Source of the DNA: a virus
Strand: one strand, 5' to 3'
Virus record (IMG/VR): IMGVR_UViG_3300042891_000711
Span: 62,001-126,000 of that record
DNA: 64,000 bases
Shown: positions 27,318 through 52,139 of the stretch, in pieces
Numbering within the stretch: position 1 is the stretch's first letter
How the letters are laid out: every line of letters starts with the position of its first letter
Translations under genes and position numbers: made by a program
The notes under the pieces: generated by a model
The model's database searches: none
Told to the model about the DNA's origin: nothing
The model's input: the letters and a program-made list of their open reading frames with translations, nothing else

Positions 27318-28034
27318 ATGTTTTTATCGCAACTCTTTGAATCAACTACTCCTAAACATGCTGCCTTTTGCTTTGGCCGTATGAATCCACCTACCGTAGG
27401 TCACGGACAATTAATCAACACAGTAGCATCAGCTAGCCAAGGTGGCGATTATTTTGTATTTGTTAGTCAGACACAAGATAAGAAAAAGAATCCTCTAAAC
27501 TATGCTACTAAAGTTAAATTTGTTCAAGCATTATTCCCAGAACATGCAGGTCATGTTGTATATGATGCTAGTATAAAAACTATTATGGATGTTATTCATT
27601 GGTTGTATGCTAATGGATATCGTAATGTAACAATGGTTGCAGGCAGTGATCGTATCAGTAGCTTTCAAGACCTATTGCCTAAATACAATGGCGTGGAAGG
27701 TGTAAACGGTGCCTACTATAAGTTTGACAGTATCAACTTTGTCAGTAGTGGCGAGCGTGACCCTGATGCAGACGGTATAGCCGGTGTTAGTGCTAGTTCA
27801 GCACGTGAAGCTGCTAGTCAAGGTAATTTAGAAGCGTTTGCACAGGCCACAGGTGCAGGTAAACTAGCTGAACCATTGTATAATGCTGTACGTAAAGGCA
27901 TGTTGTTAGAGTGTAGTGGCTATATTCCAAAGAATAAGAAAGAAGCAAAAGATCCACGCTGGAGTAATTCTCTTACTGTAGATATTAAACCAGGTGCGAT
28001 TAACAAAAATCTCAAAGCATTACGGTTAATTTAA
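27318..28034 (+). CDS. NadR/NMNAT-type nucleotidyltransferase, head-targeting N-terminus
   Basis: The HxGH-class nucleotidyltransferase signature is clear: FCFGRMNPPTVGHGQLIN at about residues 17-34, with GVSASSAREA (ISxTxxR-like) near residue 155. Known relatives transfer AMP or CMP to nicotinamide mononucleotide or other phosphates. The N-terminus MFLSQLFESTTPK has L-F-E followed by S, matching the prohead-protease cleavage rule shared by the cassette at 41281-51410, so the enzyme may be packaged in the head and injected. Substrate is not determined by sequence. Confidence 0.8.
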   Translation: MFLSQLFESTTPKHAAFCFGRMNPPTVGHGQLINTVASASQGGDYFVFVSQTQDKKKNPLNYATKVKFVQALFPEHAGHVVYDASIKTIMDVIHWLYANGYRNVTMVAGSDRISSFQDLLPKYNGVEGVNGAYYKFDSINFVSSGERDPDADGIAGVSASSAREAASQGNLEAFAQATGAGKLAEPLYNAVRKGMLLECSGYIPKNKKEAKDPRWSNSLTVDIKPGAINKNLKALRLI

Positions 28035-28364: not shown

Positions 28365-28532
28365 ATGAAAATAACCGATATTATCAAACGACCAGACTTA
28401 ACCGAAGATGCAACAGGCGGAGCAACCAGCTCTGGCGCTATTGCCACTGTACCAGGTGTTGGAACAGGTCCTAAAGTGGGCACATTGTTTGGTGGTACGT
28501 ATAAACAACCTAAAAAGAGAAAAACAAAATGA
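28365..28532 (+). CDS. Small head-targeted protein candidate, 55 aa
   Basis: A complete 55-residue frame, MKITDIIKRPDLTEDATGG..., ending KKRKTK. The N-terminus carries L-T-E followed by D, fitting the prohead cleavage rule; the rest is Gly/Thr/Ser-rich with a strongly basic end. It overlaps the start of the next gene by four bases (ATGA). After cleavage it would leave a ~40-residue basic peptide, similar in character to T4 internal proteins. Family not recognised. Confidence 0.6.
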   Translation: MKITDIIKRPDLTEDATGGATSSGAIATVPGVGTGPKVGTLFGGTYKQPKKRKTK

Positions 28533-31500
28533 GTATGATGCGAAAACTATTAGAAGCTATGACTAAATTTGCTGGTGAACCTGAGCAAAAACCGGGTGAG
28601 CAATGGAAGGGTACGGACAAAGGTACTCCAGGTAAAAAACTAGTAGGTGATAGCATCATTAAAGATCTAGTCAAGGGTCCTACTCCAAAAACTAAAGAAG
28701 AAGAATTAGCAGAGGCATACGCTAACTTTATGGAAGATGACATTGGTGTAGAACCTAAACGTCCGGGTCGTAAGAGTGATCGTCCAGCTCGTGAATATAC
28801 TAAACATGGTAAGCCAAGTAAACGTTATACTACAGTTGAAGAAGGTTGGAACACAGGCAATAACCGTGTAAGTTTACCTGATACGCCACACACTTACTGG
28901 AGTGGTACTGGAGCATTACAAAAAGAATACGATGCCTTATACGATGCACTAGTACCAAGTCAAGGTAAAGCAGATACTATTGAAGGCGAAGTATTACGTG
29001 CGTCTAGTAAAATTGTTTATCGTCACTATAACGACGGTGATGAATTTAACGAGGCTAGTTTTGATCAATTAACACCATACATCGGTACAGTTACTGGCTA
29101 CGATGATCTAGCACATAAAGCTATAGAGTTTGCTCTTAAAGCCAATGGTAACTATACTCCAAACCCAGACTGGGATAGTTTAGACGTTATGGACTACGGT
29201 CCTGCGGAAGATGACTACGAAGATGAAGATGAAGAAGATGACGATAGCTGGGATCATGATGACGACGAAGATTTATTAGGAGAAGGTATGGAAGAATTTG
29301 CCAAATCTCAAGCTAAACAACGTGCTGAAAAAAGAAAATCAATTCCTTGGCCTAAAGAAGTTCCAACTGATGCTGAACAAGAGCGCGATCGCACTCGTGA
29401 CGAAGAAGAAAACGATCCACATCCGTATGCAGACACTCCGGACTTAGATGAAGGTGCTACTGACGTTTACTCAATAACATCAGAAAGAAATGGTAGAGAG
29501 CGTAGCAAGTCTGGAACATTGGCTGAACTTATTGAATACTATAGCTACACATTAGAAACTGGTAAATCATACGAACATGAACGTGGTAACAGAAAAATCA
29601 ATCTTAACCCAAAGAGTATTGAATCATTGGTACAAAATTTAAACAATGCTAAAGACAATGCTGCAGCCAATGGTAGTAGCAACGAACGCTTTTACGTAGA
29701 TCATAGCAATATGGCAGAAGGTCGTGGTCCTAGCAAAGGTCTACACAAAAAAGTTACTATCGTTAAAGGTCGTGATGCTGGTAAAACTGGATATGTTCGT
29801 CAGATCAAAACTGACAAGTTAAGAAATCGTGTATATCTTGACCTAGACTTAGAAGATGGTGGGCAAGCAGTAGTGCTTAAACAAGATGTACGTTTAGTAA
29901 AAGACCTAGCAGAAAACTACACTGGTCGTGAAACTAAAGACGGTGTTTGGCGTGTATTTAAAGATGGTCAAGGCGGAAGTGTTGCTGGTCCATTTAAATC
30001 AGCTGAAGAAGCCAATGCATGGATTAAAAAGCAAAATCAAGGTGTGGTGGAAGCACGTACTACGTGGAACAACGATTTCTATGTGTACGATCCAGAAACT
30101 AAAACAGTTAAAAAGAAATTTCGCACACACAGAGGTGCTAAACAGTACGCAGAAGCCAACGGTTTAGCAGTAGCAAGTGCTGAATACTATCATGATTCTG
30201 TTAGTAAAGAAGTAAATGAACATGGTGACCAAGAAGGTTACGAACCGTGGGGCTCACAAGATCTAAAACCAGGTCAAAAGGCTATTCAAGGTAAACCTGT
30301 AAAGGATACTAAAAAATTCACTAAAGATTTGGCTAAAGATTTAGGCAAACAATTTAGTCAAGAACCTAAAGTTAAGGAAGGTTGGGAAAGTGGTCCTGAA
30401 GAACGTACCAGAGTTGAACGTGATCCAGACGCTGAATATGATGCACGTCGTCAAGAGAAATTAGATGCGCCTTATGCTCAAAAAGAACCAGAAGCTAAAG
30501 GATATCACGTAGTTAGCCTCGATACACGTCAGCCAGTCACCGATAAAGTGTTTCCAACTAAAGGACACGCTATGGCCTATATCCAATCTAACTACGGTAA
30601 GAACTTAGCTTATCGTGCTATCAATGAAGGTATTGAAAGCGGTGATCCAGTTGAAAGTGCTGTACTAAGTGCAGTACAAGAACTTATTCAACAAGGACAT
30701 ACAGAAGTAGCACCAGAAGTTATTACTAATATGGTAGTAGCGGCTACAAGTCAACCATTCTTACTTAAAGATCTAGTTGATTGTAACAATAATAGCCCAG
30801 CTATTCAACACTATGTTGACAGTATCAATCCTACTAAAGTTAAATTCTCTAATGAAATTTTAACTGTTAAAAATGAAGATCCTGCAAAAGATAAAAAGCA
30901 AGCACAAGCCGGTGTAAGCAGTATGGCGGCACGTGCGGCTAGTCGCAATCGTCTAGGCGAAACTAAAGCAATATCAGAATTGTCTACTGATTTAGTTACT
31001 AAAGTAGGTACTGCCAGGGCTCAACAACTTGCTCCGCATGTAGCATCTAATAGCACAAGTCCCGACAGATTGAAGTTTGCTATTAAAAAGAATAAAGCTG
31101 TAGATAATTTATTAGCAAAATCAAGAGCGGCAAACGAAATAGGTGATACAGCATCGGCACAGCACGCAGTTGCTGGTGTACGAAAAATTAAAGATACAGT
31201 TGATGGGATTAGTGAAGGCAGTGAAACTCCGTTACGTGATACAGAAGATTATCGGGCCAAACGTAGTGCATTACAACAAATTCAAATGGACCTGGATACA
31301 CATAAAGATCCACAACTTAAAGCTGAATTAACACGTAGATTGGGCAGTTTAAATCAACAATATGCAGATTTACAAAGTAAGTTACGTGAATTTAAAGAGT
31401 CTCGTGGACATAAAGTTATTGCTACCAAGTTAGGTAATATGGATCGCATGAACAATGTTCAGATTCCTACACCAGCAGAACGTCAAGAACAAATACGCTT

Positions 31501-31837
31501 ACGTAAAGAAAAGGAAGCAGGTAAAAAGCCTGTTAAAGAGTTTGCAGTTCCTGGCGCGGCTACTGTAGCTACAGCAACACCAGGTGCTAAACCAGCTGAT
31601 CCGGCGGCTGTAGCCAAAGCGGCAGCGGCAACTAATACACTAAAAGCCGCAACAGGCACTACAGTTGCTCCAGCAACATTAGATAAAGCACTCGATTCAG
31701 CTACACAAGGTACAGCAACATCAACTGATGTAAAAGCCCTTGCTCCAATAATGGGCGTACTTAATAAAGCCGCTGCAGATCCTAAACTTGCAACACAGTT
31801 TAAAACTATAGCAAATCAAGCTAAACTAACACCATAA
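28529..31837 (+). CDS. Large modular internal-protein candidate, 1102 aa
   Basis: N-terminus MSMMRKLLEAMTKF (L-L-E then A) fits the head-targeting pattern. The protein is a chain of small modules joined by sites of the same x-x-E/(G,A) form: VEE-G (~108), LGE-G (~252), LDE-G (~309), MAE-G (~397), VVE-A (~508), INE-G (~699) and ISE-G (~906). Modules include a KOW-like one (KVTIVKGRDAGKTGYVRQI, ~408), short WRVF/FYVYD units (~470-560), and an acidic stretch (~215-250). The end is Ala/Thr/Pro-rich. I infer a virion protein cut at several sites during head maturation. No enzyme motif is seen. Confidence 0.7.
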   Translation: MSMMRKLLEAMTKFAGEPEQKPGEQWKGTDKGTPGKKLVGDSIIKDLVKGPTPKTKEEELAEAYANFMEDDIGVEPKRPGRKSDRPAREYTKHGKPSKRYTTVEEGWNTGNNRVSLPDTPHTYWSGTGALQKEYDALYDALVPSQGKADTIEGEVLRASSKIVYRHYNDGDEFNEASFDQLTPYIGTVTGYDDLAHKAIEFALKANGNYTPNPDWDSLDVMDYGPAEDDYEDEDEEDDDSWDHDDDEDLLGEGMEEFAKSQAKQRAEKRKSIPWPKEVPTDAEQERDRTRDEEENDPHPYADTPDLDEGATDVYSITSERNGRERSKSGTLAELIEYYSYTLETGKSYEHERGNRKINLNPKSIESLVQNLNNAKDNAAANGSSNERFYVDHSNMAEGRGPSKGLHKKVTIVKGRDAGKTGYVRQIKTDKLRNRVYLDLDLEDGGQAVVLKQDVRLVKDLAENYTGRETKDGVWRVFKDGQGGSVAGPFKSAEEANAWIKKQNQGVVEARTTWNNDFYVYDPETKTVKKKFRTHRGAKQYAEANGLAVASAEYYHDSVSKEVNEHGDQEGYEPWGSQDLKPGQKAIQGKPVKDTKKFTKDLAKDLGKQFSQEPKVKEGWESGPEERTRVERDPDAEYDARRQEKLDAPYAQKEPEAKGYHVVSLDTRQPVTDKVFPTKGHAMAYIQSNYGKNLAYRAINEGIESGDPVESAVLSAVQELIQQGHTEVAPEVITNMVVAATSQPFLLKDLVDCNNNSPAIQHYVDSINPTKVKFSNEILTVKNEDPAKDKKQAQAGVSSMAARAASRNRLGETKAISELSTDLVTKVGTARAQQLAPHVASNSTSPDRLKFAIKKNKAVDNLLAKSRAANEIGDTASAQHAVAGVRKIKDTVDGISEGSETPLRDTEDYRAKRSALQQIQMDLDTHKDPQLKAELTRRLGSLNQQYADLQSKLREFKESRGHKVIATKLGNMDRMNNVQIPTPAERQEQIRLRKEKEAGKKPVKEFAVPGAATVATATPGAKPADPAAVAKAAAATNTLKAATGTTVAPATLDKALDSATQGTATSTDVKALAPIMGVLNKAAADPKLATQFKTIANQAKLTP

Positions 31838-32435: not shown

Positions 32436-33128
32436 ATGAGAATATATGATTTAAATCCCGTAGTTAACGAAGATAATGAAATGTCAGATGTCATTACTGC
32501 TCGCGGACTAGTAAATAGAGCATTAGATAATCCCGCTGCACGTCAGGAATACTTTGATTACATGACGCATCTGCGTAATAAACACGGTAAAGAATACAGC
32601 ACACGTATACATCAAAAAGCCACATCATTTGCTAAATCAGTAGACGAAACAATTAAAAAAGTAGGCAGCCAATACGAACTTGTTAGTAAATCGGGTAAGA
32701 ACCTAGGCAAGTATCCTACTAGAGCTGGTGCTGAGAAACGTGAGCAACAGGTTAATTATTTTAAACACGTTAAAGAAGATGCGTGGACTGGTGAAAATCC
32801 ACCGTGGCATAACGGTAATGATCAATGGAATGATGGTACTGACCAATGGCATAGTGCAGATGATGGTGCAGGTAGCAGTGCTGCAACTCCATCATCTGCA
32901 GGTCCGCTAACTGGTGAGATACCAGTTAAAGAAGAGTTTAATGCACAAGATGTTGTTAGTGTTGATGTTCCACTATTAATACGCTTACTTGAATATGCTC
33001 GCGAAGATGCTAAAACAGACATGGATTTACACACAGTAGCTGAACGATTAATTGATCTCAGTCAAGAAGGCGTTACACTAACAATGCAAGATTACGACAC
33101 AATTTGCAACACCAAGGAAACTGATTAA
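32436..33128 (+). CDS. Head-targeted/structural hypothetical protein, 230 aa
   Basis: N-terminus MRIYDLNPVVNEDNEM has V-N-E followed by D, a looser match to the prohead cleavage rule. The middle motif YELVSKSGKNLGKYPTRAGA followed by EKREQQVNYFKH is a short module frequent in T4-like phage structural proteins. A Trp/Asn/Asp-rich repeat (HNGNDQWNDGTDQWHSADDG) follows, then a helical C-terminus (LLIRLLEYAREDAKTDMDLH). Late promoter upstream; stop overlaps the start of the adhesin gene. Confidence 0.65.
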   Translation: MRIYDLNPVVNEDNEMSDVITARGLVNRALDNPAARQEYFDYMTHLRNKHGKEYSTRIHQKATSFAKSVDETIKKVGSQYELVSKSGKNLGKYPTRAGAEKREQQVNYFKHVKEDAWTGENPPWHNGNDQWNDGTDQWHSADDGAGSSAATPSSAGPLTGEIPVKEEFNAQDVVSVDVPLLIRLLEYAREDAKTDMDLHTVAERLIDLSQEGVTLTMQDYDTICNTKETD

Positions 33129-36315: not shown

Positions 36316-36824
36316 TTTTAAATAATGCCCTCAATGCTGGTAACTTTGTTTACTGCATGATACACTGGAGCCCGCACGAAGAAATTGAATATTTCAACGA
36401 CGGTGATGGCCACTATCATCCATCTGTGTATGTTTTAGAGGGCAAGGGGTGGGCTGAATTTAAAACACCAGAAGGTGAAATATACATAAGTGAAGCCACT
36501 GGCGCTCCAGGAACAATTGTAGATACAAGTCATAGCAAGGGTAATTATCAAATTATCCGTACCATGGATAGTGGACTTACATTGTTTCACATAAACCCTG
36601 TACCAGCAACTAGAAATTTGCACACAGAAATAGTAAACGGTCCCATCACTCGCACAATTACTGCTGGTGATAAACGAGTAGTCGTTGTGGTTATTACGGG
36701 TCCAATTACTGCTAACGGTAAACAACTATCTAGTCTACAACATAGTAAAGTATTTCCCAGCAAGTCAGTAGAATTGATAATTCCAGAGCATGCAATATGC
36801 GCATTAGTGACCGAAATAAACTAG
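36312..36824 (+). CDS. Cupin-fold protein
   Basis: The pattern GDGHYHPSVYVLEGKGWAEF (about residues 30-49) matches cupin motif 1, with two histidines able to hold a metal; PGTIVDTSHSKGNYQI continues the barrel. The 170-residue product is a single-domain beta barrel. It precedes two membrane desaturases and overlaps the first by 28 bases, so it may work in the same pathway. Substrate unknown. Confidence 0.6.
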   Translation: MILNNALNAGNFVYCMIHWSPHEEIEYFNDGDGHYHPSVYVLEGKGWAEFKTPEGEIYISEATGAPGTIVDTSHSKGNYQIIRTMDSGLTLFHINPVPATRNLHTEIVNGPITRTITAGDKRVVVVVITGPITANGKQLSSLQHSKVFPSKSVELIIPEHAICALVTEIN

Positions 36825-41233: not shown

Positions 41234-41242
41234 AGTAATATT

Positions 41243-41250
41243 TATAAATA
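41243..41250 (+). promoter_or_regulatory. T4-type late promoter, exact consensus
   Basis: TATAAATA, 30 bases before the ATG at 41281; heads the cassette of head-targeted protein candidates (41281-46314). Confidence 0.7.
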
Positions 41251-41280
41251 CTAATTGTAAACAAAAATAAAGGTCCGGTA

Positions 41281-42017
41281 TGAAAATAACTGAAGGTGGG
41301 AATGTATTTAAACTAGCTGATGGTAGCGAAGCAACCGGACGTATCAATCGTGCAGATGTCATTCCTACAGTTAAATGGTTAGAGCAATTAACAGGACTTA
41401 ATCTAGTAGACAATATGCTAGGGTCAACTGGCTACAAAGAAACAAGTGGCGACCTAGACCTAGCAGTTGATGTAAGTAAAATCAGCAAAGATGTACTGGT
41501 ACAACAACTATTAAAGAAAGGCATTGAACCTACTGACATTAAAAAGACAGGCGACAGCGTACATTTTAAAACACCCATCAACGGTGAAGCAAAGAACGGC
41601 TACGTACAAACTGACTTTATGTTTGGTGATCCAAACTTCCAACGTTTTAGTATGACAGGTAGTCCAGAAGGTAGCCCATTCAAAGGCATGCATCGTCATG
41701 TATTACTTGCTAGTATTGCTAAAGCACAGGGCATGAAATGGTCATACAAGAATGGCCTAATGGACCGTACTACAAACGAAGTTATTTCAAAAGATCCAAG
41801 TGAAATTGCACACAAACTATTCAATGGTAGTGCCGCTGATCTAGCATCAGTTGAAACTATCGTTGCTAAGATTAAAAATCTACCTAACTACAATGCCTTA
41901 GTAGCAGATGCACGTGAAACATTAGGCAAGGAAAATGTACAACTACCGGAATCACAGCAGGCAATAGTAGGCGAAGGTTCGGCAGCATGGTTTAAGAACT
42001 GGAAGTCAGTGCTGTGA
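41281..42017 (+). CDS. Nucleotidyltransferase-like protein with head-targeting N-terminus (1)
   Basis: Begins MKITEGGNVF (I-T-E then G), matching the prohead-protease rule within the first five residues. The body has a polymerase-beta-type nucleotidyltransferase signature: STGYKETSGDLDLAVDV (about residues 49-65, with D-x-D) and a third acidic residue in YVQTDFMFGD (~113). Such domains transfer NMP to proteins, tRNA or antibiotics. The C-terminus is helical. First gene of a co-directional cassette; overlaps the next by four bases (GTGA). Confidence 0.68.
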
Positions 42018-42955
42018 GAGCTAAGGAGTTTATCTTAGAAGGCGGTTGGGCAAGTACTTTAACACAAGGTACACATATCACACCTGCACTAGTTGATGTT
42101 GTTGTACAATCATTACCTGCATTTGAACAAGCATTAAATGCTTTCTTAAAAACCAAAGACCTAGCACCAGTTAAGATAGGCACGCCAGTTGGTAGTACAA
42201 CATACTACAAACGCGACCTTGCACAAAATCCTCAACGTGAATACGGTGACATTGATGTTAACTTCTTTGTGCCACGCTTGTCTGATATGTCGGACAATGC
42301 TAACGAACAAACATACAGTTCAGCTATTAAAGAGTTTTGCGACAGTAACCCTAACTACTCAACTAACAACGGCACAAATGTTATAATTAAAGTAGGCGAC
42401 GAATATGTACAAGTTGACTTTGTTACAGCATACTATGAGAACGAACAGTGGAGTCGTGCCTTAGGACCAGAGTACAATGTTAAAGGTGTACTAAGCGCAA
42501 GTTTATACTCATCACTAGCAGAAGCATTAAATCTCAGCTTTGGTGGACGTGGAGTACAGGTTAAATTACAAAATGGTGTGCCAGTTAGTTTTAGACAAAC
42601 TAAAGATACAGAGCTTAAAACCATAACAAATAATCCCGACACATGGGCAGTTGATATTGCTACATTCCTTGGTGCTAAAACTATCAGCGCACGTTTAGCC
42701 AAGTATCCAGGTATGGGTGACGAAATAAAAACTTCAAATACTATTAACAGTATTGTTGGCATTGCTGAAAGTTTAGGCCGTCCTGAGTTAATAGAACAAG
42801 TGAAAGCAATTTACATAAGTAAAATAAGCAAGGCAGTTAATAGCAGTAAGTTTGATAAAGCTGTGACATCAGAAGCTAAGAAAAAAGCTGAAGATACCAA
42901 AGCATTATTAACAAGAGAAGCACAGCGTATATTAGGACAGTTTGATGCGATTTAA
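42014..42955 (+). CDS. Nucleotidyltransferase-like protein with head-targeting N-terminus (2)
   Basis: Starts with GTG at 42014 overlapping the preceding stop. The N-terminus MRAKEFILEGGW carries the fullest form of the signal (EFIxE then G). The catalytic region reads GSTTYYKRD, EYGDIDVNFFVP (about residue 78, D-x-D) and VQVDFVTAYY (~135, third Asp), a polymerase-beta-like nucleotidyltransferase pattern. Residues 230-313 are helical with a lysine-rich end. Substrate unknown; modification of a host tRNA or protein after injection is inferred. Confidence 0.7.
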   Translation: MRAKEFILEGGWASTLTQGTHITPALVDVVVQSLPAFEQALNAFLKTKDLAPVKIGTPVGSTTYYKRDLAQNPQREYGDIDVNFFVPRLSDMSDNANEQTYSSAIKEFCDSNPNYSTNNGTNVIIKVGDEYVQVDFVTAYYENEQWSRALGPEYNVKGVLSASLYSSLAEALNLSFGGRGVQVKLQNGVPVSFRQTKDTELKTITNNPDTWAVDIATFLGAKTISARLAKYPGMGDEIKTSNTINSIVGIAESLGRPELIEQVKAIYISKISKAVNSSKFDKAVTSEAKKKAEDTKALLTREAQRILGQFDAI

Positions 42956-44297
42956 AGAATTTTTAAGAGAATACAGCAGAGAGAAAACAGTCAATGTCTT
43001 TGGCAACAAACTTGTTGCGGCATTAGGCAAGGATAAGAGCCACACTCTTTCTGGTACACAGTTAGGCACGGATCGTGCGTTCATTGATCAAAAGATCAAA
43101 GTTAATGATATGATTACAGCAGAACAACGTCAAATAATTATCGATCACATCATGGTTGTAATTGAAAATTCTGACCCTACAGCAAACAAAGAGTATGTAC
43201 AGTGGTTGACTAAAGTATATGCTAACCAAGGTATTAAACTAGAAGATATAATAAGTCGTGGTAACAGTGCGCTTAAAATGTATCACGAATTCAAAGTTAA
43301 AAAAATATTACCAGCAGAATATAGAGACATTGGTCGCATTGACTTTGCTGGCTTAGAAGCAATAGCACAAAATCTTGACCTACGTAATGCCTTAGCCGCT
43401 AAAGAAGAACAAGAAGCCGCTAAGACTGTAGACAAGGGCGAAGCTGAAACTGTATTTGAAAATGCTGCAGTGCGTATCATTGTACCCAAGAATGAAGCAG
43501 CATCCGGTTACTATGGACAAGGTACACGTTGGTGTACTGCTGGACGTGACAACAATATGTACGATCGTTATGCTCGTGATGGTGACTTGTATATCTTACT
43601 ACCTAAGAAACCCGACTACGAAGGTGAGAAATATCAACTACACTTTAGTAGCAATCAGTTTATGGACGAAGGTGATAACTACGTAGACAGCGTAAAAGAC
43701 CTAATAACTAAACGCTTTGGCAATTTATTACCATTCTTTATGGAGCGCGAGCCTTCACTTAAAGATTGGTTAGTGTTTACTCCAGATGAGGTATTAAAAC
43801 CATTATTGGCTAAAATTAAAACAGCCGTAAACGACCACGTAAGCGAAATAGTCAACGACTGGGAAGTACAAGACGACTACTGGTGGGATCACCTACGCAG
43901 TGAAGGATATGTATATCCAGAAGGTCACGACGAAGAAGGCGAGATTGACTTTGATGCTGCGGCAGATGCCGATCTAAGTTACACTGATTGGAACTACGAA
44001 GCCAGCGACTTTATTCGAACAATTAATAATGCTGTAGATCTAACGCCAGAAGAAGTGCGCGAAATTGCCCAAGAGGAAGAAGATGATTACAACGGAGATG
44101 TGGGTGTTAATGACCTTGATACTATCATAGAACGCAGTATATCAAAAAATATTGGTAGAAATAGTAGTGACGGTGGTGTGATAGAATGGATTAAAGATCA
44201 CATTTATATTAAGAAAACTGGTGGTGATGGAGCATGGGACGTTAGTTTGCTGTACACAGACAAAGAAGGAAAGCGTGCAGAATACGCAATACACTAA
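42945..44297 (+). CDS. Head-targeted protein with GTRWCTA motif, 450 aa
   Basis: Starts at ATG 42945, overlapping the previous gene by 11 bases. N-terminus MRFKEFLREYSREK (L-R-E then Y) matches the cassette signal. The central motif GYYGQGTRWCTAGRDNNMYDRY, given here only by its ends GYYGQGTRWCTA and NMYDRY, followed by GDLYILLPKK and KYQLHFSSNQF, recalls a domain found in PcfJ-like and other phage proteins with conserved W-C-T. Its activity is not known to me. The C-terminal third is highly acidic. Confidence 0.65.
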   Translation: MRFKEFLREYSREKTVNVFGNKLVAALGKDKSHTLSGTQLGTDRAFIDQKIKVNDMITAEQRQIIIDHIMVVIENSDPTANKEYVQWLTKVYANQGIKLEDIISRGNSALKMYHEFKVKKILPAEYRDIGRIDFAGLEAIAQNLDLRNALAAKEEQEAAKTVDKGEAETVFENAAVRIIVPKNEAASGYYGQGTRWCTAGRDNNMYDRYARDGDLYILLPKKPDYEGEKYQLHFSSNQFMDEGDNYVDSVKDLITKRFGNLLPFFMEREPSLKDWLVFTPDEVLKPLLAKIKTAVNDHVSEIVNDWEVQDDYWWDHLRSEGYVYPEGHDEEGEIDFDAAADADLSYTDWNYEASDFIRTINNAVDLTPEEVREIAQEEEDDYNGDVGVNDLDTIIERSISKNIGRNSSDGGVIEWIKDHIYIKKTGGDGAWDVSLLYTDKEGKRAEYAIH

Positions 44298-44298
44298 T

Positions 44299-45000
44299 AT
44301 GAGAGCTAGAGACTTTACAAAGAACAACGTTGCTTATAACAAACAACTAAATCCAGTGGCCTGGGACAATAATCAATTAAACGATGAAGTGCGAGATCGA
44401 CTACTAGAGATTGCTGAACGTTTTGTCAGCTACTTAGAGATTCCTAATTTTAAAGTAGAAGATGTTGTACTCACAGGTAGTATGGCCAACTACAACTGGA
44501 CTAAGTTTAGTGATTTTGATGTGCATGTTGTTACTAACTACAGTGACCTACAATGTGATGATATTGCCGAAGCGTTCTATCGTGCCAAGAAACAAATTTG
44601 GAATGACGGGCACGATATTACTATCTACGGTTATGATGTAGAATTGTATGTAGAAGATGTTGCGCAACCTCCAGTTAGCGAAGGTGTATATAGTTTGTTA
44701 AACAATAAGTGGCTTAAAACTCCCGACTTTAAAGTGCCATCAATCGATCGTGCTAGTGTTAATGCCAAAGTATTAGATCTACGTAGCCAAATTGATCATG
44801 CTATTGTAGCCGCTGATGATCCAGAAGATATTAAACGTATATCAGAAAAGATTCGTAAAATGCGCCGTGCAGGATTAGATGCTGGCGGCGAATTCAGCAC
44901 AGAAAATCTAGCATTTAAAATCCTACGTAATATGAAGTACATGGATAAATTAAGTAAAGCATATCGTCAACAACAAGACGATGATTTGAGTTTAAAATAA
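44299..45000 (+). CDS. Nucleotidyltransferase-like protein (3)
   Basis: ATG 44299 chosen (MRARDFTKNNVAYN), one base after the previous stop; a longer frame from 44221 lies inside that gene. It shares MRAxxF with the cassette but lacks the x-x-E cleavage site, so packaging is doubtful. The nucleotidyltransferase signature is very clear: VVLTGSMANYNWTKFSDFDV (about residues 55-74, GS...DxD) and a third acidic position in YDVELYVED (~115). The C-terminal half is helical and basic (ISEKIRKMRRAGLDAGGEF). Confidence 0.75.
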   Translation: MRARDFTKNNVAYNKQLNPVAWDNNQLNDEVRDRLLEIAERFVSYLEIPNFKVEDVVLTGSMANYNWTKFSDFDVHVVTNYSDLQCDDIAEAFYRAKKQIWNDGHDITIYGYDVELYVEDVAQPPVSEGVYSLLNNKWLKTPDFKVPSIDRASVNAKVLDLRSQIDHAIVAADDPEDIKRISEKIRKMRRAGLDAGGEFSTENLAFKILRNMKYMDKLSKAYRQQQDDDLSLK

Positions 45001-46004
45001 TGAGAGCACGTGAATTTATAACTGAAGCTATTAGCAACAAGCGAGTAATTCAGTATATTAAACAACATCACCCTAGAGGCGAATGGACTGCGGTTGCTAA
45101 TAACATGGTTATGAAATACCCAAAATACGAATTATCGTGGGTTCCTGTTAGCCAACTTAAAATAGATGGTGACGAGCCAATTGAAGATCCGTATAGTCGT
45201 GTTATTGACGTAGATCAAAGTTATGCAAGCAGACTTTCTACACAAGATATTGAAGATAATCCTATTGTCATAGACGCACAAGGACATATCTTAGATGGTA
45301 ATCATCGTGCTTGGCAAGCAAAACAATTAGGCATGGATATGATACCAGCGTATGTGCCTGTTAAAGAATTAACTGAATCACTAGATCTTGAAGTTGAAGA
45401 ATTTTTAAATAATCTAACACCGGAAGATGTTGGTGTAGACGAAGTAGGCGATTACCGTGTACACTTTGAAGGCTTTACTGATGACTGCCAATCCAGCAGA
45501 GATTACTGTCGTAATCCAAAAAAAGTGTTTCAAGAAGTATTTGCTGATTTTATCCGCCGTGAGGGTGGACAACAACCTGTAGCGTCAGGTATGGTAGGTG
45601 ATGATGACTACCCTATTCTATACAGCGTGTTTAAGGACACAGTTAGAAAAAATGTGCCGTTAACTCCAGAAAAAGCATACCAAATAGCATATAATAAAAA
45701 GAAACCGTGGCCTACAGGCAGTGCTGAAGAGCAACTAATTCGTAGTGATTTCCAATTAAGTGATTTGTATGATAGGTATGTGTTGAATCAGACCGATATG
45801 AGAGCAAATGAATTTATAAGCGAAGACGAAGGATTAAGCTATCAAGGTAATTGTACCGATGATGATGTTATTGAATATATTTTCGGTGATGCCACTACGT
45901 TTGCGCAGTTGGTTGACGAATACGGCGATGAGTTTGTATTAGACGATTTAGTAGTAAAGTATAATCCAGAAGAAGATATACACTACTTCTATTATAAGAG
46001 CTAA
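45000..46004 (+). CDS. ParB/Srx-like domain protein with two head-targeting signals
   Basis: Begins MRAREFITEAIS (I-T-E then A). Residues ~50-115 contain ARLSTQDIEDNPIVIDAQGH-like text (SRLSTQDIEDNPIVID) and ILDGNHRAWQAKQLG, the pattern of ParB/sulfiredoxin-type nucleases (GxHR). An acidic helical module follows. At residue 267 (base 45798) a second complete signal, MRANEFISEDEGL, appears in frame, followed by an acidic 60-residue tail. This looks like a fusion of two neighbouring cassette genes, or an internal start producing a second short protein. Confidence 0.7.
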   Translation: MRAREFITEAISNKRVIQYIKQHHPRGEWTAVANNMVMKYPKYELSWVPVSQLKIDGDEPIEDPYSRVIDVDQSYASRLSTQDIEDNPIVIDAQGHILDGNHRAWQAKQLGMDMIPAYVPVKELTESLDLEVEEFLNNLTPEDVGVDEVGDYRVHFEGFTDDCQSSRDYCRNPKKVFQEVFADFIRREGGQQPVASGMVGDDDYPILYSVFKDTVRKNVPLTPEKAYQIAYNKKKPWPTGSAEEQLIRSDFQLSDLYDRYVLNQTDMRANEFISEDEGLSYQGNCTDDDVIEYIFGDATTFAQLVDEYGDEFVLDDLVVKYNPEEDIHYFYYKS

Positions 46005-46005
46005 T

Positions 46006-46314
46006 ATGAGAGCCAATGAATTCTTAACCGAGTCGTACGAGTTTTTTGATACTATAGTAGATCAAATCAAAGCTCAAGTGCCAGCAGAAGAAATATGGTT
46101 TCACGGTAGCAGGGTAATTGGAACTGAACACGATGAAAGTGACTGGGATATCTTAGTTATTGTTCCTGATAACATAGTAGGTGATGAGTATATCAATGTT
46201 ACTAGGATATTACAATCTATAGCAAGAAGATACGAAAATTTTGATATACAACCTGCTCGTGCGTCAAACAATATTGCCCGTATAGCAAGAGAAGAAGGCG
46301 AACGAATAGATTAA
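46006..46314 (+). CDS. Minimal nucleotidyltransferase (MNT-like) with head-targeting N-terminus
   Basis: The 102-residue protein begins MRANEFLTESYEF (L-T-E then S). The remainder is a minimal nucleotidyltransferase: EIWFHGSRVIGTEHDESDWD (about residues 29-48, GS...DxD with DWDILV). This layout resembles antitoxin/toxin MNT domains and kanamycin-type nucleotidyltransferases. Starts one base after the previous stop. Third clear nucleotidyltransferase in 5 kb bearing the cassette signal. Confidence 0.75.
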   Translation: MRANEFLTESYEFFDTIVDQIKAQVPAEEIWFHGSRVIGTEHDESDWDILVIVPDNIVGDEYINVTRILQSIARRYENFDIQPARASNNIARIAREEGERID

Positions 46315-46316
46315 AG

Positions 46317-46387
46317 AACACCTACCTTAGGCCCATACTCGTTATGGTGTTTGGTGTGGCCGGCTGCTGGCCTGGAGGGATGCCAAA
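46317..46387 (+). ncRNA. GC-rich structured intergenic element
   Basis: Two hairpins are readable: AACACC (46317-46322) with GGTGTT (46346-46351), and TTTGG (46350-46354) with CCAAA (46383-46387) enclosing GGCC (46358-46361) and GGCC (46369-46372). The patch is far richer in G and C than its surroundings. It has no T run and no tRNA arms. It may be a processing or regulatory RNA; purely structural evidence. Confidence 0.35.
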
Positions 46388-46408
46388 AGTGAGCAAGATT
46401 AAACAAGC

Positions 46409-46416
46409 GATAAATA
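46409..46416 (+). promoter_or_regulatory. T4-type late promoter candidate
   Basis: GATAAATA, seven bases before the ATG at 46423 and downstream of the GC-rich hairpins. The short distance leaves little room for a leader, so the true start or promoter use is uncertain. Confidence 0.4.
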
Positions 46417-46422
46417 CTTAAT

Positions 46423-49400
46423 ATGCGATATAGTCAAATTAAACAAGCCTTAAAAGAAGCAGAGATCATTGATGAAGTATCAATGAGTCCTTCCAGCCTA
46501 GAAGCGTTCGCTAACAGTCCGGAAGCTGATGGTATGCTTATGGGTATTGAATTTGAAATGTGCGTACCCAATGCCAGCTCAGGTGACTATGAGCCTGAGT
46601 GGGAATACGATTACGAATACAACGAAAGCGCCTACAATATTGATGATATTCTTAACTTCTTCCGCAACGGTGATTTCAGTAACATGAGTCGTAGTGACTC
46701 TGAGCGTTATCGTAGTGAACTATATGACGAATACCTAGACTGGACTAATGAAGCATCTAATCGCTATATAGACGATAACGTAGATGAATTAGACAGCCTT
46801 ATCCGAGATCAACTTGAAGGCGAAATTGATCGTGATGATGTCAAAGATGCGGCACGTACTCGCTGGATAGAAGCAAACCCTGACGAAGATCCCGACAGTG
46901 ACGATGCTGATGCAGAAATTCGTGTCATAACATTAGAAATGATCGAAGATCGAGTAGATGAATTAATGGCAGATACCAGCGGTAGAGAGTATCAATATGC
47001 CTACGACCAAGCACGTCAAGAAATGGAAGATGACTTCCGTAACGGTGGTGATGGCGATGAAGGTGCTTGGTTAAGCGACATTGGCATTGGTGATATGCAG
47101 GACGCTGAACGTCATTGGGGCTTTGATTGGCCTCACATGTATGACGCTAACGAAGGCAATGATGGTGGTGATGCAGACATAGATCAAGTAGCAGATGACT
47201 TTTATGGTGCTACTGGATATGAAGCACGCGGGTTTAGTAATTACCACAGTGGCAATCGTAGTCAGCAACAACAAGAAGGTTACTTTATTATTGAACCCGA
47301 TGCTTCAATTGATGCTGAACAAGGTGATGCAGGCTTAGAGTTTATCAGTCCAGCTATGCCACTTAAAGATGGCTTGACTATGTTGAAAAAAGTTAAACAA
47401 TGGGCTAAGTTGGCAGGTTGTTATACTAACAAATCAACGGGCCTACACATGAACATCAGTGTGCCTAACATGACCACTGATAATCTAGACTATGTTAAAC
47501 TAGCATTATTCCTAGGTGACGAATACGTACTTCAAGAGTTTGGTCGTCAGTACAATACCTATGCTAAAAGTGCCATGAAGATTGTTAAAGAAAAGATTCA
47601 GGCCAATCCAGAAAACGCCACAGAATTGTTGGCCAAGATGAAAGAACATCTTGGAGCGGCAGCTAGTAAACTAGTACACAGTGGCGTTACACAAAAGTAT
47701 ACAAGTATCAATACCAAAGGCAACTACGTAGAATTCCGTGGTCCAGGTGGTGATTATCTAAACGAAGACATACCTAAACTTGTTAATACTGCTCTACGCC
47801 TAGCACAAAGCCTACGTATTGCCACAGACGAGTCAGCATACAAACAAGAATACGCTAAGAAATTATACAAACTAATCAGCCCAGAAGGCGAGTGGACTGA
47901 TCCTAATAACTCAGTAGCATTGTTCAGTCGCTATGCTCTAGGACAGATCAACAAATCAGAATTAGTAAGTAATGTTCGTCAAGCACAAACAGCTCGTAAA
48001 GAGAAGAAAGGCGAAGAAGTACAGTACTGGGTAATGAATAAAGATGGCACTGGTGGTAAGCAAATGGTATTTGCCGCTAGTGAAACAGCCGCTATCATCC
48101 TAGGCGGTAAACAAATGGGCATGAACCGTGAACAAAGTATCAGCAAACTTAAAGCTGAATTGTTTGTAGATACTAACAAAGAAAATACACCGCCAGCATC
48201 AGTACCACTTAGTTGGATTGATTGGATAACAGATACACTACCTACGGTTACTGTAGATACAGCAAATTCTGTAAGAGAAAGAATAAAAGATGGCAGAGAT
48301 AATTTAGATGCAGATGCCAATGGTTGGATAGTTAGACAGATTGACAACGAACTACGCAGTAGAATGGATCAAGGAGTAGTCGACGGCAATGAAACACGCT
48401 GGAAGGTTTATTTTGCTCGTGGTAGACATGTAGATCAAGACCCGGTATTCGTCGATGCTGATAGTCCTCGTCAGGCTAAACTTAAAGCCGCAGATATATT
48501 CATGCGAGAGCAACGGATATCAGTGGGCCTACACGATTTAGAAGCCATTGCTACCACACAAGATGCTGGCCGTCCAGAAGTAACTTGGAATATTATAAAC
48601 GGTCTAGGTGAACCTGCTGGTACTGTTAACGCAAGAACCAGTGACGAAGCACTACATGTATACGGTAGTGTTAATAATGTCGATACTAGATACTATAGAG
48701 CAACACCAGTTGAAACAACGCCAAGTGCAGGCACGTACACTAGTTTCGCAGATGCGCAGGCTGCGGCAGATAGAGCAAACGCTGGTAATACCACTAACAG
48801 AGAAGTGTTTGACGGTTTAGCCAATAACTGGCAAGAGTGGCTTCAGGGTGTTGGTAGACATACCGACGGTAATCTACAGCGTATACTTGATAATATGGCC
48901 CAGGGTGTTAATGCTCACTATACCAACTTAACTCTTGACGAGAAAGACTTTATTATTAATACTGTTAATCAAGAAATACGCCGCCGTAGTAGTAATAACG
49001 AATTAGCTGCCAACGCAGGTGGTGCCGAAAACGCAGTGCGTGATAGTTTGCCCCAAGCACATCGTGAGTGGTTAGACAATGTAGCCGATAAGAGTGACAT
49101 GGATCTAATCAACGTATTCCGTAATGTCAGCACAACCGCAGTATTAAATGATCAACAGACTGCTTACTTTAGAGTTATTATTAAACGTGAACTACGTCGT
49201 CGTGGTATCAGCGACAGTGAGCGCGATGCTAGCGAACAAGGCGCAACTCCAGTACCTAATTATGAGATATATGCGCCAGACAGCGGAGTAGTAGTACACC
49301 AATTCCACGCCGACAACGAAACAGACGCAAATAGAAAGTTCAGTGAATTTGAACAGAATTACGAATCAGATTACGATTTCCATCACGAGTATCGCAGAAT

Positions 49401-49650
49401 TGGCCCTGCACAACAGGAATTACCATTGGAACCCGCAGTGCCACAGACCACTGCTACAGATTTTGAAGTAGTTAAAGCTGATGGTAGTGTGGTGTCAAAC
49501 ATACGAGGTGCTGATATGGTCTATGCTCATCGTAAAGCACGTGAATTAGAACAAGACCTGGGCTTAGAAAGTGGTGCGTTAACAGTTAGAGCATTACCAA
49601 CAACAAACGAATCTATAAAACAATTACGCCGATTGGCAGGATTAGTATAA
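46423..49650 (+). CDS. Large protein with amidoligase-like domain, 1075 aa
   Basis: N-terminus MRYSQIKQALKEAEIIDE (L-K-E then A) fits the head-targeting set. Residues ~40-490 contain signature pieces of the putative amidoligase (COOH-NH2 ligase) family: MGIEFEMCVPN (~40, GxExE), GLEFISPAMPLKDGL (~305), CYTNKSTGLHMNIS (~333) and GNYVEFRGPGGDYLN (~435). This family is thought to form amide bonds at protein or peptide carboxylates using ATP. The C-terminal ~500 residues hold several small modules and end NESIKQLRRLAGLV. An injected protein-modifying enzyme is inferred. Confidence 0.7.
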   Translation: MRYSQIKQALKEAEIIDEVSMSPSSLEAFANSPEADGMLMGIEFEMCVPNASSGDYEPEWEYDYEYNESAYNIDDILNFFRNGDFSNMSRSDSERYRSELYDEYLDWTNEASNRYIDDNVDELDSLIRDQLEGEIDRDDVKDAARTRWIEANPDEDPDSDDADAEIRVITLEMIEDRVDELMADTSGREYQYAYDQARQEMEDDFRNGGDGDEGAWLSDIGIGDMQDAERHWGFDWPHMYDANEGNDGGDADIDQVADDFYGATGYEARGFSNYHSGNRSQQQQEGYFIIEPDASIDAEQGDAGLEFISPAMPLKDGLTMLKKVKQWAKLAGCYTNKSTGLHMNISVPNMTTDNLDYVKLALFLGDEYVLQEFGRQYNTYAKSAMKIVKEKIQANPENATELLAKMKEHLGAAASKLVHSGVTQKYTSINTKGNYVEFRGPGGDYLNEDIPKLVNTALRLAQSLRIATDESAYKQEYAKKLYKLISPEGEWTDPNNSVALFSRYALGQINKSELVSNVRQAQTARKEKKGEEVQYWVMNKDGTGGKQMVFAASETAAIILGGKQMGMNREQSISKLKAELFVDTNKENTPPASVPLSWIDWITDTLPTVTVDTANSVRERIKDGRDNLDADANGWIVRQIDNELRSRMDQGVVDGNETRWKVYFARGRHVDQDPVFVDADSPRQAKLKAADIFMREQRISVGLHDLEAIATTQDAGRPEVTWNIINGLGEPAGTVNARTSDEALHVYGSVNNVDTRYYRATPVETTPSAGTYTSFADAQAAADRANAGNTTNREVFDGLANNWQEWLQGVGRHTDGNLQRILDNMAQGVNAHYTNLTLDEKDFIINTVNQEIRRRSSNNELAANAGGAENAVRDSLPQAHREWLDNVADKSDMDLINVFRNVSTTAVLNDQQTAYFRVIIKRELRRRGISDSERDASEQGATPVPNYEIYAPDSGVVVHQFHADNETDANRKFSEFEQNYESDYDFHHEYRRIGPAQQELPLEPAVPQTTATDFEVVKADGSVVSNIRGADMVYAHRKARELEQDLGLESGALTVRALPTTNESIKQLRRLAGLV

Positions 49651-50315
49651 TGAACTTATTTGAAATGTTTGAACAAGGGCCACCTAAGCCAACGCTGATA
49701 GATGCATTGCGTGATTTTTTGCCCATCGCAGTTCAACATTTAAAATTAGATCACATTCCTAAAATTCGTTTAGTTAAATCATTAGATGATACAACATTTG
49801 GTCGTTATGTCAATGATGAGCAAGTAATTTATGTAGTTGTTGATAATCGCAATCCTGTAGATATCTTGCGTACACTAGCACACGAAATGGTACATTATGC
49901 GCAGGGTCAAGATGATCAACTTGATAGCACTTCCGGCGAAACAGGCAGTCCAATTGAGAACGAAGCCAACGCAGAAGCAGGTGTTATTATGCGGTTGTTT
50001 AATCAAAAACATCCTAGCTATATGCAGGCCGATCCAATAGCATTACCTGAAGCATGGAGTGCAAAATACAAAAAGAGTATTAATTGCAGTAACCCAAAAG
50101 GATTCAGTCAAAAGGCGCACTGTGCCGGACGTAAGAAAACTGATGAGAACTTTGCAGATGGTAAGAAGCCAGGCCGTAAAGGACTAGCCAAACGTTCAGG
50201 TGTTGACTGTGGTCAAAGCATAAGTAAATTAAGAAGCGTTGCAAAAAATAGCAGTGGCGAAAAGCAACGTATGGCACACTGGTGCGCTAATATGAAATCA
50301 GGGAGAAGTAAATGA
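49650..50315 (+). CDS. Zinc metallopeptidase-like protein with Cys-rich tail
   Basis: N-terminus MNLFEMFEQGPPKP contains L-F-E and M-F-E sites. The zinc peptidase motif HExxH is exact in TLAHEMVHYAQGQ (about residue 81), with a downstream Glu in ENEANAEAG (~110) as possible third ligand, as in SprT/gluzincin-like enzymes. After residue ~145 there are basic Cys/His modules: CSNPKGFSQKAHCAGRKK and AKRSGVDCGQSISKLRSVAK, then AHWCANMKSGR. These resemble small phage virion-associated modules. Overlaps neighbours at both ends (TAATG, ATGA). Confidence 0.72.
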   Translation: MNLFEMFEQGPPKPTLIDALRDFLPIAVQHLKLDHIPKIRLVKSLDDTTFGRYVNDEQVIYVVVDNRNPVDILRTLAHEMVHYAQGQDDQLDSTSGETGSPIENEANAEAGVIMRLFNQKHPSYMQADPIALPEAWSAKYKKSINCSNPKGFSQKAHCAGRKKTDENFADGKKPGRKGLAKRSGVDCGQSISKLRSVAKNSSGEKQRMAHWCANMKSGRSK

Positions 50316-50989
50316 AGTCAAATGAATTTTTATCAGAATCTGAAAAGCAAAAAGGTGTTGACGGTAAAGCCTGCTGGGATGGTTATAAGCGCATGGGCAC
50401 TAAGAAGAAAGGTGGCAAGACTGTTGACAACTGTGTTAAGATGGAAGAATCCATTGATGAGTACGATGACGAAGCCGGCATGGTTGACAGTAATTTAGAA
50501 ACAATTAAACGTGCTGCTGAAGAATTAGATCAAGTGTTAGGCCAAGATGACAACATGGCTGAATGGGCACAGGAAAAACTAGCAGTAGTTAAGAGCATGT
50601 TAGTTGCTGTTAAAGACTATGTAGTTAGTCAAAAATCTACAGGCATCGATCCACAAATAGACGAAGAACTAGAAGAAACATACCACGGTGATGAGTTCTT
50701 CGAAGCCTACGGCGAAATGTGGTTTAACGAAGATGAACAATTAGACGAAGCTGAATATCACGGACGTAAAGTTCCCCTAGGTAAACCAATGCAGGGTGAT
50801 GTTAAGAAGTTTAAAGTATATGTTAAAGATCCTAGCACAGGTAACATCAAAAAAGTAAACTTTGGTGATCCTAATATGCGTATTAAGAAGTCAAACCCTG
50901 CGAGACGTAAATCATTTAGAGCACGTCACAACTGTGCAAACCCGGGTCCACGCACTAAAGCACGTTACTGGTCATGCCGCAAGTGGTAA
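50312..50989 (+). CDS. Head-associated protein with conserved basic C-terminal domain
   Basis: N-terminus MKSNEFLSESEKQ (L-S-E then S) is a strong cassette signal. It is followed by GVDGKACWDGYKRMGTKKKG, a short module common in T4-like phages. An acidic helical middle ends in a second site, QLDE-AEYHGRK (about residue 146). The C-terminal ~75 residues, with KVNFGDPNMRIKKSNP, ARRKSFRARHNC and TKARYWSCRKW, are a highly conserved basic domain I know from marine T4-like phages as structural. Likely cleaved twice in the prohead. Confidence 0.72.
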   Translation: MKSNEFLSESEKQKGVDGKACWDGYKRMGTKKKGGKTVDNCVKMEESIDEYDDEAGMVDSNLETIKRAAEELDQVLGQDDNMAEWAQEKLAVVKSMLVAVKDYVVSQKSTGIDPQIDEELEETYHGDEFFEAYGEMWFNEDEQLDEAEYHGRKVPLGKPMQGDVKKFKVYVKDPSTGNIKKVNFGDPNMRIKKSNPARRKSFRARHNCANPGPRTKARYWSCRKW

Positions 50990-50990
50990 T

Positions 50991-51410
50991 ATGACCAACT
51001 GGGAAACTTACGTTAAAGAATCCTATGAGCTTATTAAAGAAGCTGAAACTGCACTATCAATCACATTAGAACACAATGTTGAAGCATACGTTGTACACTT
51101 GTTCGCACACTTCCTAGACAAACCCAATGTCAATACAGAACCTGTGGGCATTAAACTAATGGCCAGTACCAATCTACCCGTAGCACAACGTAAGATATTA
51201 CTCAAAGATGTAGGCGATGAATGCTTGTTAATCAATGCTATGGAATGGAACCGACGTCGTTGGCCTACTGATACCTACTATGCTGAAATGGGGCAATCTG
51301 CTTATGTTACACGTGCTGTTGTGGCTAGGCCTGTAGAAGATATCTACGACGATTTGGCTATGGAATTTACTACAGTTACACAGGTTCTACGTAGATGTAG
51401 AATTAGTTAA
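50991..51410 (+). CDS. Hypothetical protein with possible head-targeting N-terminus, 139 aa
   Basis: Start at ATG 50991 (MTNWETYVKESYELIKEAE), one base after the previous stop; an in-frame upstream reading lies inside the preceding gene. V-K-E followed by S is a weaker match to the cleavage rule. The body has helical text (VEAYVVHLFAHFLDKPNV) and RRRWPTDTYYAEMGQSAYV. No family is recognised. The 3' end overlaps the convergent desaturase gene by 24 bases. Confidence 0.6.
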   Translation: MTNWETYVKESYELIKEAETALSITLEHNVEAYVVHLFAHFLDKPNVNTEPVGIKLMASTNLPVAQRKILLKDVGDECLLINAMEWNRRRWPTDTYYAEMGQSAYVTRAVVARPVEDIYDDLAMEFTTVTQVLRRCRIS

Positions 51411-52139
51411 TTTCATTAATTTCATTGCTATTAACACCCTGCAATACAACCAACTAGTATCAATTTCCCACCAATACCGATTGAAGTACGGAGTAGTTGT
51501 ATCATTATGATGATGCGCATGCAATACTTCACCGCCGCCGAATATACCCGGAAAAAATATTTTTGATTTATCCTTGCCACTATTGCCTGCATAGGTAAAC
51601 CCAATTTTATGATAGCCATAGTTTGATAATATTACAGCACAGGGATTAAAGACATAAAGAAAAAATGCGCCTATTACTGCACCAGGCACGCCAAATAATA
51701 TAGTCAGCACAGCCCACAATATAATTGTTCCCAATCTTGGATATTTACTATATAGATTAAGTTCAATCCAATCAATGGCAGTTATGATATCTGGTGCATA
51801 TAATTTCATTTCCTCGTCGCTGATATAATAAGGACGGCCTAGTTCATTGTGTTTATAGTCAAGCATCTGCGTAAATGTTAATTGATAAGGACTATGTGGG
51901 TCTAGCTCAGTATCACTATACTTGTGATGTTTTCTGTGTTGGGCGGCATAGTGTTGCATCCAATTGGGCCAAGAATACTGCATGGTAATCCATACCCAAA
52001 ATCTAAAAAAATGTTCTAGTCCAGGTGCAAAGCTAAAATAATGATGGCCTTTACCTCGATGTATGTAGATGGAAAATACCACAAATGTTACATGCATTAT
52101 TATTAAAAATGTAATTATAGCTGCGGTTAACCCAAACAT
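51387..52139 (-). CDS. Membrane fatty acid desaturase (delta-9 type), copy 3
   Basis: The 250-residue protein has all histidine boxes: HRGKGHH (~27), HRKHHKYSDTELDPHSPY (~68) and HAHHHND (~210). The HRKHHxxSDTxxDPHSP block is characteristic of bacterial acyl-CoA/phospholipid delta-9 desaturases. Hydrophobic spans at ~4-24, ~46-55 and ~142-178. Minus strand; its promoter region adjoins the divergent DsbA-like promoter. With the genes at 36797, 37588, 39691 and 40427 this makes five membrane di-iron enzymes in the window. Confidence 0.87.
   Translation of the reverse strand: MFGLTAAIITFLIIMHVTFVVFSIYIHRGKGHHYFSFAPGLEHFFRFWVWITMQYSWPNWMQHYAAQHRKHHKYSDTELDPHSPYQLTFTQMLDYKHNELGRPYYISDEEMKLYAPDIITAIDWIELNLYSKYPRLGTIILWAVLTILFGVPGAVIGAFFLYVFNPCAVILSNYGYHKIGFTYAGNSGKDKSKIFFPGIFGGGEVLHAHHHNDTTTPYFNRYWWEIDTSWLYCRVLIAMKLMKLTNSTST

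Follow-up and report, generated by a model that had tools for sequence, protein, structure and literature searches.

In bacteriophage T4, experiments have assigned the targeting and processing of internal protein IPIII to its first ten residues: these suffice for packaging, residues 4 and 7 serving in targeting and residues 8 and 10 in processing (PMC9026906). Foreign proteins fused to the IPIII signal are packaged and delivered (PMC9026906). T-even internal proteins as a group are recognized by their capsid-targeting signal, and at least ten are known; the three made by T4 inhibit different type IV restriction enzymes (PMC12373910). Here we analyze a 64,000-nucleotide stretch of viral DNA (the window), bases 62001-126000 of the 218,902-bp IMG/VR record IMGVR_UViG_3300042891_000711, in which a late operon at positions 41280-51410 carries a leader of the form M-R/K-x-x-E-F-I/L-x-E on five genes and at one in-frame internal site. 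Most probably, these leaders are propeptides that target proteins to the capsid as in the T4 internal proteins, and the set they define is a large, modular, enzyme-rich and partly polyprotein variant of the T4 system rather than a new kind.

A DNA-level search of the window for M-[KR]-x-x-x-F-[I/L/F..]-x-E yields five matches, which lie between 42945 and 50338 and are all on the + strand; shuffling gives an expectation of 0.12, and none of 100 shuffles produced more than one. Across the full record the same five matches and no others were found, and the reversed pattern has none (record stretches 19001-62000 and 126001-199000 were covered by this pattern search only). Gene 42014, which starts with GTG, carries a sixth copy that the DNA pattern misses. 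A strict protein motif, in which F[ILMF]xE must be complete by residue 12, is present in 5 of 10 cassette genes (P about 7e-10 with the internal rate, 0.5%, and 7e-7 with 2%) and in 1 of the 121 other open frames of the window. The leaders so recognized end in I-L-E, L-R-E, I-T-E, L-T-E and L-S-E, thus in (L/I)-x-E ahead of the expected scissile bond (^ below). Applied to T4 as a control, the strict motif picks out IPII, IPIII (MKTYQEFIAE^A), 61.1 and gp35, and IPI, Alt, gp22 and gp24 start with looser forms of it. The likeness to the T4 capsid-targeting sequence and its (L/I)-x-E end, from which an earlier reading of this DNA (the original prediction) had started, is thereby borne out. As a separate observation, the T4 hypothetical protein 61.1 (L014, 18966-19130, - strand) starts MKTFKEFIKED, a very good leader of the capsid-targeting type.

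The N-termini quoted in the original prediction are all present in the sequence, with some adjustments of position and reading: the first gene starts at 41280 rather than 41281, the ATG of MRFKEFLREY is at 42945, the internal MRANEFISED begins at 45798, and the genes at 28365 and 28529 start MKITDIIKRPDLTED and MSMMRKLLEA. Gene 44299, whose start MRARDFTKNN reproduces the first half of the leader, had been overlooked. The looser starts in the same list (MKITEGG, MRYSQIKQALKEAE, MNLFEMFEQ, MFLSQLFES, MRKLLEA, NPVVNED) are not outstanding by sequence alone; homologues support those at 41280, 46423, 49650, 27318 and 28365. An arsenal of about fifteen proteins therefore stands as a count of candidates (nine cassette genes, four outside the cassette and one internal site), but the strict leader is found on only five genes. 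The set is much larger than that of T4 itself (IPI-III plus Alt); T-even relatives taken together are reported to have at least ten internal proteins (PMC12373910).

Like T4 IPI-III, the products described here combine an N-terminal sequence of about 10 residues containing E-F-I/L-x-E and ending in (L/I)-x-E with unrelated bodies, belong to a nonconserved, swappable gene set, and are encoded in the same genome as an S77 prohead protease. They differ from the T4 proteins in often having enzyme bodies, in fusing modules around internal sites and in the variety of bodies, about 50 across the lineage. The leader itself is one residue shorter than that of IPIII and lacks Tyr/Phe at position 4, which is mostly K/R/N/Q rather than Tyr; the Phe at T4 position 7 corresponds to Phe 6 of the leader. 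The difference at position 4 reduces identity with the T4 sequence and does not lower the likeness of function.

A short motif of this kind might be the ordinary N-terminal helix of each fold, alike by chance or convergence, and in the AlphaFold model of the 42945 product residues 3-6 do form a weak helix. In the same model, however, residues 1-10 have a mean pLDDT of 43 and residues 11-20 of 84; in that of the 42014 product the values are 28 for residues 1-10 and 85 for residues 21-30, with residues 1-13 below 50 (the models are moderate overall, pTM 0.51 for 42945 and 0.59 for 42014). The leader thus falls, with low confidence, outside the modeled fold in both cases. In a leader-bearing superoxide dismutase from relatives, those alignments with solved enzymes that extend to the N-terminus start at residue 12-18, past the leader. 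With some 50 unrelated bodies sharing the leader and five pattern matches where 0.12 were expected, an ordinary helix is a very improbable explanation.

The modular nature of the leader is apparent in relatives, which were gathered as loci found via the bodies and by scanning viral contigs with the leader DNA alone. The scan returned 149 matches; 143 stand at the start of frames of 60 or more amino acids and 138 lie shortly after an in-frame stop, placing the leader at gene starts in other phages as well (143/149). Together with the body-derived relatives, they fall into 52 clusters of bodies, nearly all with a strict leader, in agreement with the proposal that the leader is a removable tag and not a sign of common descent. 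The bodies include GNAT acetyltransferases, an M23 peptidase with LysM and an Fe/Mn superoxide dismutase (PF00081 and PF02777). In six copies of the latter, H38, H67, D143 and H147, which we take to be candidate metal ligands, are invariant. The dismutase genes lie at L025 10736, L032 5988, L034 5916, L051 12556, L054 14538 and L055 8035, and are absent from the window cassette. The commonest body with the leader pattern is a 125-amino-acid family of unknown function (MRAKEFIHEAANKMQQDAINSLPSSQRW; L089 8230 and 69 more).

The same body can follow different leaders. The metallopeptidase-like body has MNLFEMFE^Q in the window and MRARHFLCE^D in a homologue (L088); the cytidyltransferase body is found behind MFLSQLFE^S, MLLRELFE^G or MKIRQILKE^A, and that of gene 41280 behind MKITE^GG or MRAQEFISTPVLLE^GG. 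Conversely, modules fused in the window occur separately elsewhere. Gene 45000..46004 (+), with the strict leader MRAREFITE^A, encodes three modules (ParB-like, B and C). At its first internal junction (45369..45380, +), L-T-E^S separates the ParB-like module from module B and aligns with the ITE^S leader end of shorter homologues; at the second (45798..45824, +), an in-frame leader MRANEFISE^D precedes module C, where L023 and L024 have LTE^D. In these two loci the first module is missing: MRAREF runs directly into ITES, aligning with the window's internal LTES, and modules B and C directly follow the leader. Gene 49650..50315 (+) joins an HExxH metallopeptidase-like body to two basic C-terminal modules that start at LPE^AWS and TDE^NFADG; free-standing copies of these modules, with strict leaders, have FITE^AWS and FIIE^NFADG (L131, L025, L049). 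Pairs of either type (same body with different leaders, fused and unfused) identify the leader as a swappable module, and the prohead protease would be expected to separate the fused modules at their xE sites. As a side observation, a small gene between the portal and core genes of L002 (18357-18581) starts MNLLEIFNSE, resembling the 49650 leader; its relatives start MNLFEILE and MQLFEMFD.

The record is that of a T4-like phage, with a portal, a prohead-core-like protein and an S77 prohead protease at its far end. The protease gene, sought elsewhere in the genome as the original prediction had proposed, lies at record 218560-218901 (PF03420, phrog_207) and is truncated by the end of the record. 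No capsid protein was found within the record stretches read; all 11 leader-carrying records that have the protease also carry a full gp23. In relatives, the junctions expected by T4 homology obey the same rule as the leaders: the capsid protein has LME^T, LKE^N, LSE^S or LAE^S, the scaffold has IINE^S, and most proteases have ILTE^D or a similar sequence. The capsid segment that follows the junction, A-S/T-x-G-..-G-x-I/V-A-T, recurs after the sites of window gene 28365 and of small proteins with the leader. When the residue ahead of this segment is left free, 17 of 18 distinct cases, roughly half of them from capsid proteins, have E there. The cassette also shares a promoter motif with the portal gene. 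A T4-type late promoter motif, TATAAATA, occurs at 41243..41250 (+), 30-37 nt upstream of the first cassette gene, and again 25-32 nt upstream of the portal gene (record 215589) and 35-42 nt upstream of a gene at record 212956. A common motif at similar spacing ahead of the cassette and the portal gene fits proteins made during head assembly.

These findings also bear on whether the shared start might be a DNA-level repeat, used in recombination or translation, of which the protein sequence is a by-product. The leader is indeed the largest direct-repeat family in the cassette, and the deletion in L023 and L024 falls at it. Yet its copies vary at synonymous positions while the amino acids are kept, the bases upstream are not common to them, and the (L/I)-x-E rule operates in capsid, scaffold and protease genes where there is no DNA repeat. 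We therefore give this explanation very little credence.

A link to virions comes from other phages, in the form of homologues or of leader-bearing proteins. Cyanophage S-CREM2 has 52 virion proteins in its published proteome (PMC10665884), and served as the single test case with 219 genes. The strict motif occurs in six of these genes, five of whose products are in virions (Fisher P 0.0032; 2.4e-4 without the 24 canonical structural proteins): a SAM hydrolase, a kinase, a cytidylyltransferase and two proteins of unknown function. Deeper inside S-CREM2 proteins the motif is rare and shows no enrichment, and extending it to residue 26 brings in gp12 together with two proteins that are not in virions (P 0.006). 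The homologue of 44299, gp156, was detected in the virion proteome by mass spectrometry, as was gp154, which has the same annotated function as 27318 and starts MKNFSSFLTE^A. The 42945 homologue of phage PA5oct, EST35_0205, carries the annotation of a structural protein detected by ESI-MS/MS. In S-CREM2 and other cyanophages, mass spectrometry has placed a kinase, a SAM hydrolase and NMNAT-like proteins in virions; these are similar to the window products in their leaders (MKRFDAFLTEE, MKDFDSFLEE, MKNFSSFLTEA) and differ in host and in most bodies. The parts of the S-CREM2 publication consulted (PMC10665884) make no mention of the leader. In the open library searched, 15 papers use the term "capsid targeting sequence"; by their titles they deal mainly with T4 and a few enterobacterial phages, and cyanophages are mentioned in only one of them, a T4 review. 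One could also envision that the leader directs proteins to another place, such as the membrane, a host protein or a replication compartment. Its resemblance to the experimentally tested T4 sequence and its co-occurrence with S-CREM2 virion proteins make such a destination improbable.

Several observations weigh against the capsid-targeting interpretation. The phage is known from sequence alone, and as its own capsid protein lies beyond the end of the record, the cleavage site of that protein is deduced from relatives. Gene 44299 (MRARDF) is devoid of the Glu, as are many of its homologues, which retain the MRA-x-D pattern; the product may be packed uncut, since the T4 change at residue 10 blocks processing and not targeting (PMC9026906). 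More generally, in an unbiased list of 58 distinct starts of the type M-R/x-x-x-E/D-F from relatives, 39 continue to [ILMVF]xE and 19 do not, indicating that the tag is not always cleavable, or that the sequence is not always a tag. A profile built from the whole leader list failed to separate virion from non-virion proteins of S-CREM2 (P 0.15-0.2), and the strict motif, drawn from T4 and the core window leaders, was adopted after this failure. Peptide support in S-CREM2 is thin for some proteins (one peptide for gp13, three for gp154), and the authors caution that abundant proteins may be carried over through CsCl purification (PMC10665884). Finally, gp155, gp160 and others are in S-CREM2 virions without the strict motif.

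With the leaders read as capsid-targeting propeptides, the most probable sequence of events is as follows. The operon would be read in late infection from the T4-type late promoter, and the first nine or so residues of each product (M-R-A-x-E-F-I/L-x-E) would bind the scaffold core, so that the prohead comes to enclose the protein. The S77 protease would then cut after (L/I)-x-E, removing the tag and separating fused modules at internal sites. The freed cargo would stay in the head and most likely pass with the DNA into the new host and act there. In this phage it would consist of nucleotidyltransferases, amidoligase-like, metallopeptidase-like and basic proteins; in relatives, it would include superoxide dismutase, acetyltransferases and M23 peptidase. 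The cargo is likely to act as injected effectors. The tagged proteins might instead be packed and cut but work inside the head, as scaffold, DNA-condensing or particle-protecting factors: several modules are small and basic (50312, the C-terminus of 49650), T4 IPIII affects head assembly (PMC9026906), and superoxide dismutase could protect particles. However, many of the bodies look like enzymes whose substrates are nucleotides or proteins, and such enzymes would have no obvious use in a DNA-filled head; moreover, Alt and IPI of T4 exert their effects in the host (PMC9026906, PMC12373910). A role confined to the head thus seems rather unlikely for the set, even though some tagged proteins may be scaffold-like or DNA-condensing. 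Returning to injected effectors, we lean, by a small measure, toward the view that in an uncultivated, T4-like and often jumbo lineage an exchangeable nine-residue tag loads dozens of unrelated proteins into the head, among them superoxide dismutase, acetyltransferases, nucleotidyltransferases and a peptidoglycan peptidase, partly as protease-separated polyproteins, and that entry delivers a kit which is comparable to the effector set of a secretion system and can be recognized from sequence alone.

Packaged enzymes have a precedent in T4 Alt, an ADP-ribosyltransferase whose short hydrophobic leader also ends at E (MELITELFDE^D). The leaders of 27318, 49650 and 41280 resemble that of Alt more; no body here was identified as an ADP-ribosyltransferase. 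We know of no M-R-A-x-E-F leader in SPN3US or phiKZ. The ejection proteins of these phages are comparable in forming a large set of head proteins that are cut by the prohead protease and, there, ejected; they differ in protease recognition and propeptides (PMC9026906). The window set, for its part, comes from sequence, its cleavage and injection being presumed.

Phage proteins that are injected are difficult to recognize, since their bodies have nothing in common. A readable tag with a built-in cleavage site would turn the question of what a phage injects into a sequence search, testable by particle proteomics. Such a search would give many phage proteins of unknown function a role and point to new anti-defense enzymes, and the leader could serve as a short, naturally occurring tag with which to load proteins into the heads of non-T4 phages.

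The remaining cassette genes, all on the + strand, are as follows. Gene 41280..42017 encodes a nucleotidyltransferase-like protein (GS...DLD) with the short leader MKITE^GG; its homologues keep [LI]-x-E-GGN, with L099 reading MRAQEFISTPVLLEGG. The product of 42014..42955 (MRAKEFILE^GG) is Pol-beta/CD-NTase-like and gave weak nucleotidyltransferase matches by Foldseek, the best being CdnC (E 2e-4, TM 0.22). Gene 42945..44297 (MRFKEFLRE^Y) encodes a 450-amino-acid protein for which the fold search returned no solved relative and only viral proteins of unknown function, including the PA5oct structural protein. Gene 44299..45000 encodes a PF01909 nucleotidyltransferase with the targeting half of the leader, and 46006..46314 a small nucleotidyltransferase (PF18765 and PF01909) with the strict leader MRANEFLTE^S. 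Gene 46423..49650 specifies a 1075-amino-acid amidoligase-like protein (PF12224) with the looser leader MRYSQIKQALKE^A, its homologues retaining [LI]-x-E ahead of MSP. A C-terminal LRRLAGL, shared by this protein and its homologues and similar in head protein 19211, was rejected as a second general tag. The cassette's strict leaders end with 50312..50989 (MKSNEFLSE^S), a basic protein made of KACW..NCVK and RHNC..YWSCRKW modules.

Four candidates lie outside the cassette, also on the + strand. Gene 27318..28034 encodes a cytidyltransferase/NMNAT-like protein with the leader MFLSQLFE^S, and 28365..28532 a 55-amino-acid protein, MKITDIIKRPDLTE^DATGGATSSGAIATV, in which the segment after E matches the capsid-protein junction of relatives and small leader-bearing proteins of L153 and L166. 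The next gene, 28529..31837 (MSMMRKLLE^A), encodes a modular protein of 1102 amino acids that is possibly a polyprotein; it has 10 [LIV]xE[AGSND] sites against 5.05 expected, a weak excess (P 0.027, uncorrected). Among the long proteins only this one reaches such a value, 46423 being below expectation. Gene 32436..33128 has the looser leader MRIYDLNPVVNE^D, and its homologue in L027 starts MRIQDFNPAVNED. Both 28529 and 32436 are candidates as tagged cargo.

Other genes near the cassette or in relatives deserve mention in their own right. A non-specific endonuclease (PF01223, window 38975-39688) has a signal-peptide-like start, and TATAAATA lies 31-38 nt upstream of it. The cassette is flanked by five membrane proteins that resemble desaturases and have His boxes (window 36797-38355, 39691-41413 and 51387-52139); compared with FA_desaturase (PF00487), two gave weak matches below cut-off and two others tested gave no match. 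A tail-fibre-like protein (window 33128-35911) has, near residues 105-253, a self-processing domain of the Hint/pretoxin-HINT type (PF07591). In L003 (11077-14987), a phage carries curli-like genes, with CsgG (PF03783) and curlin-repeat-like proteins.

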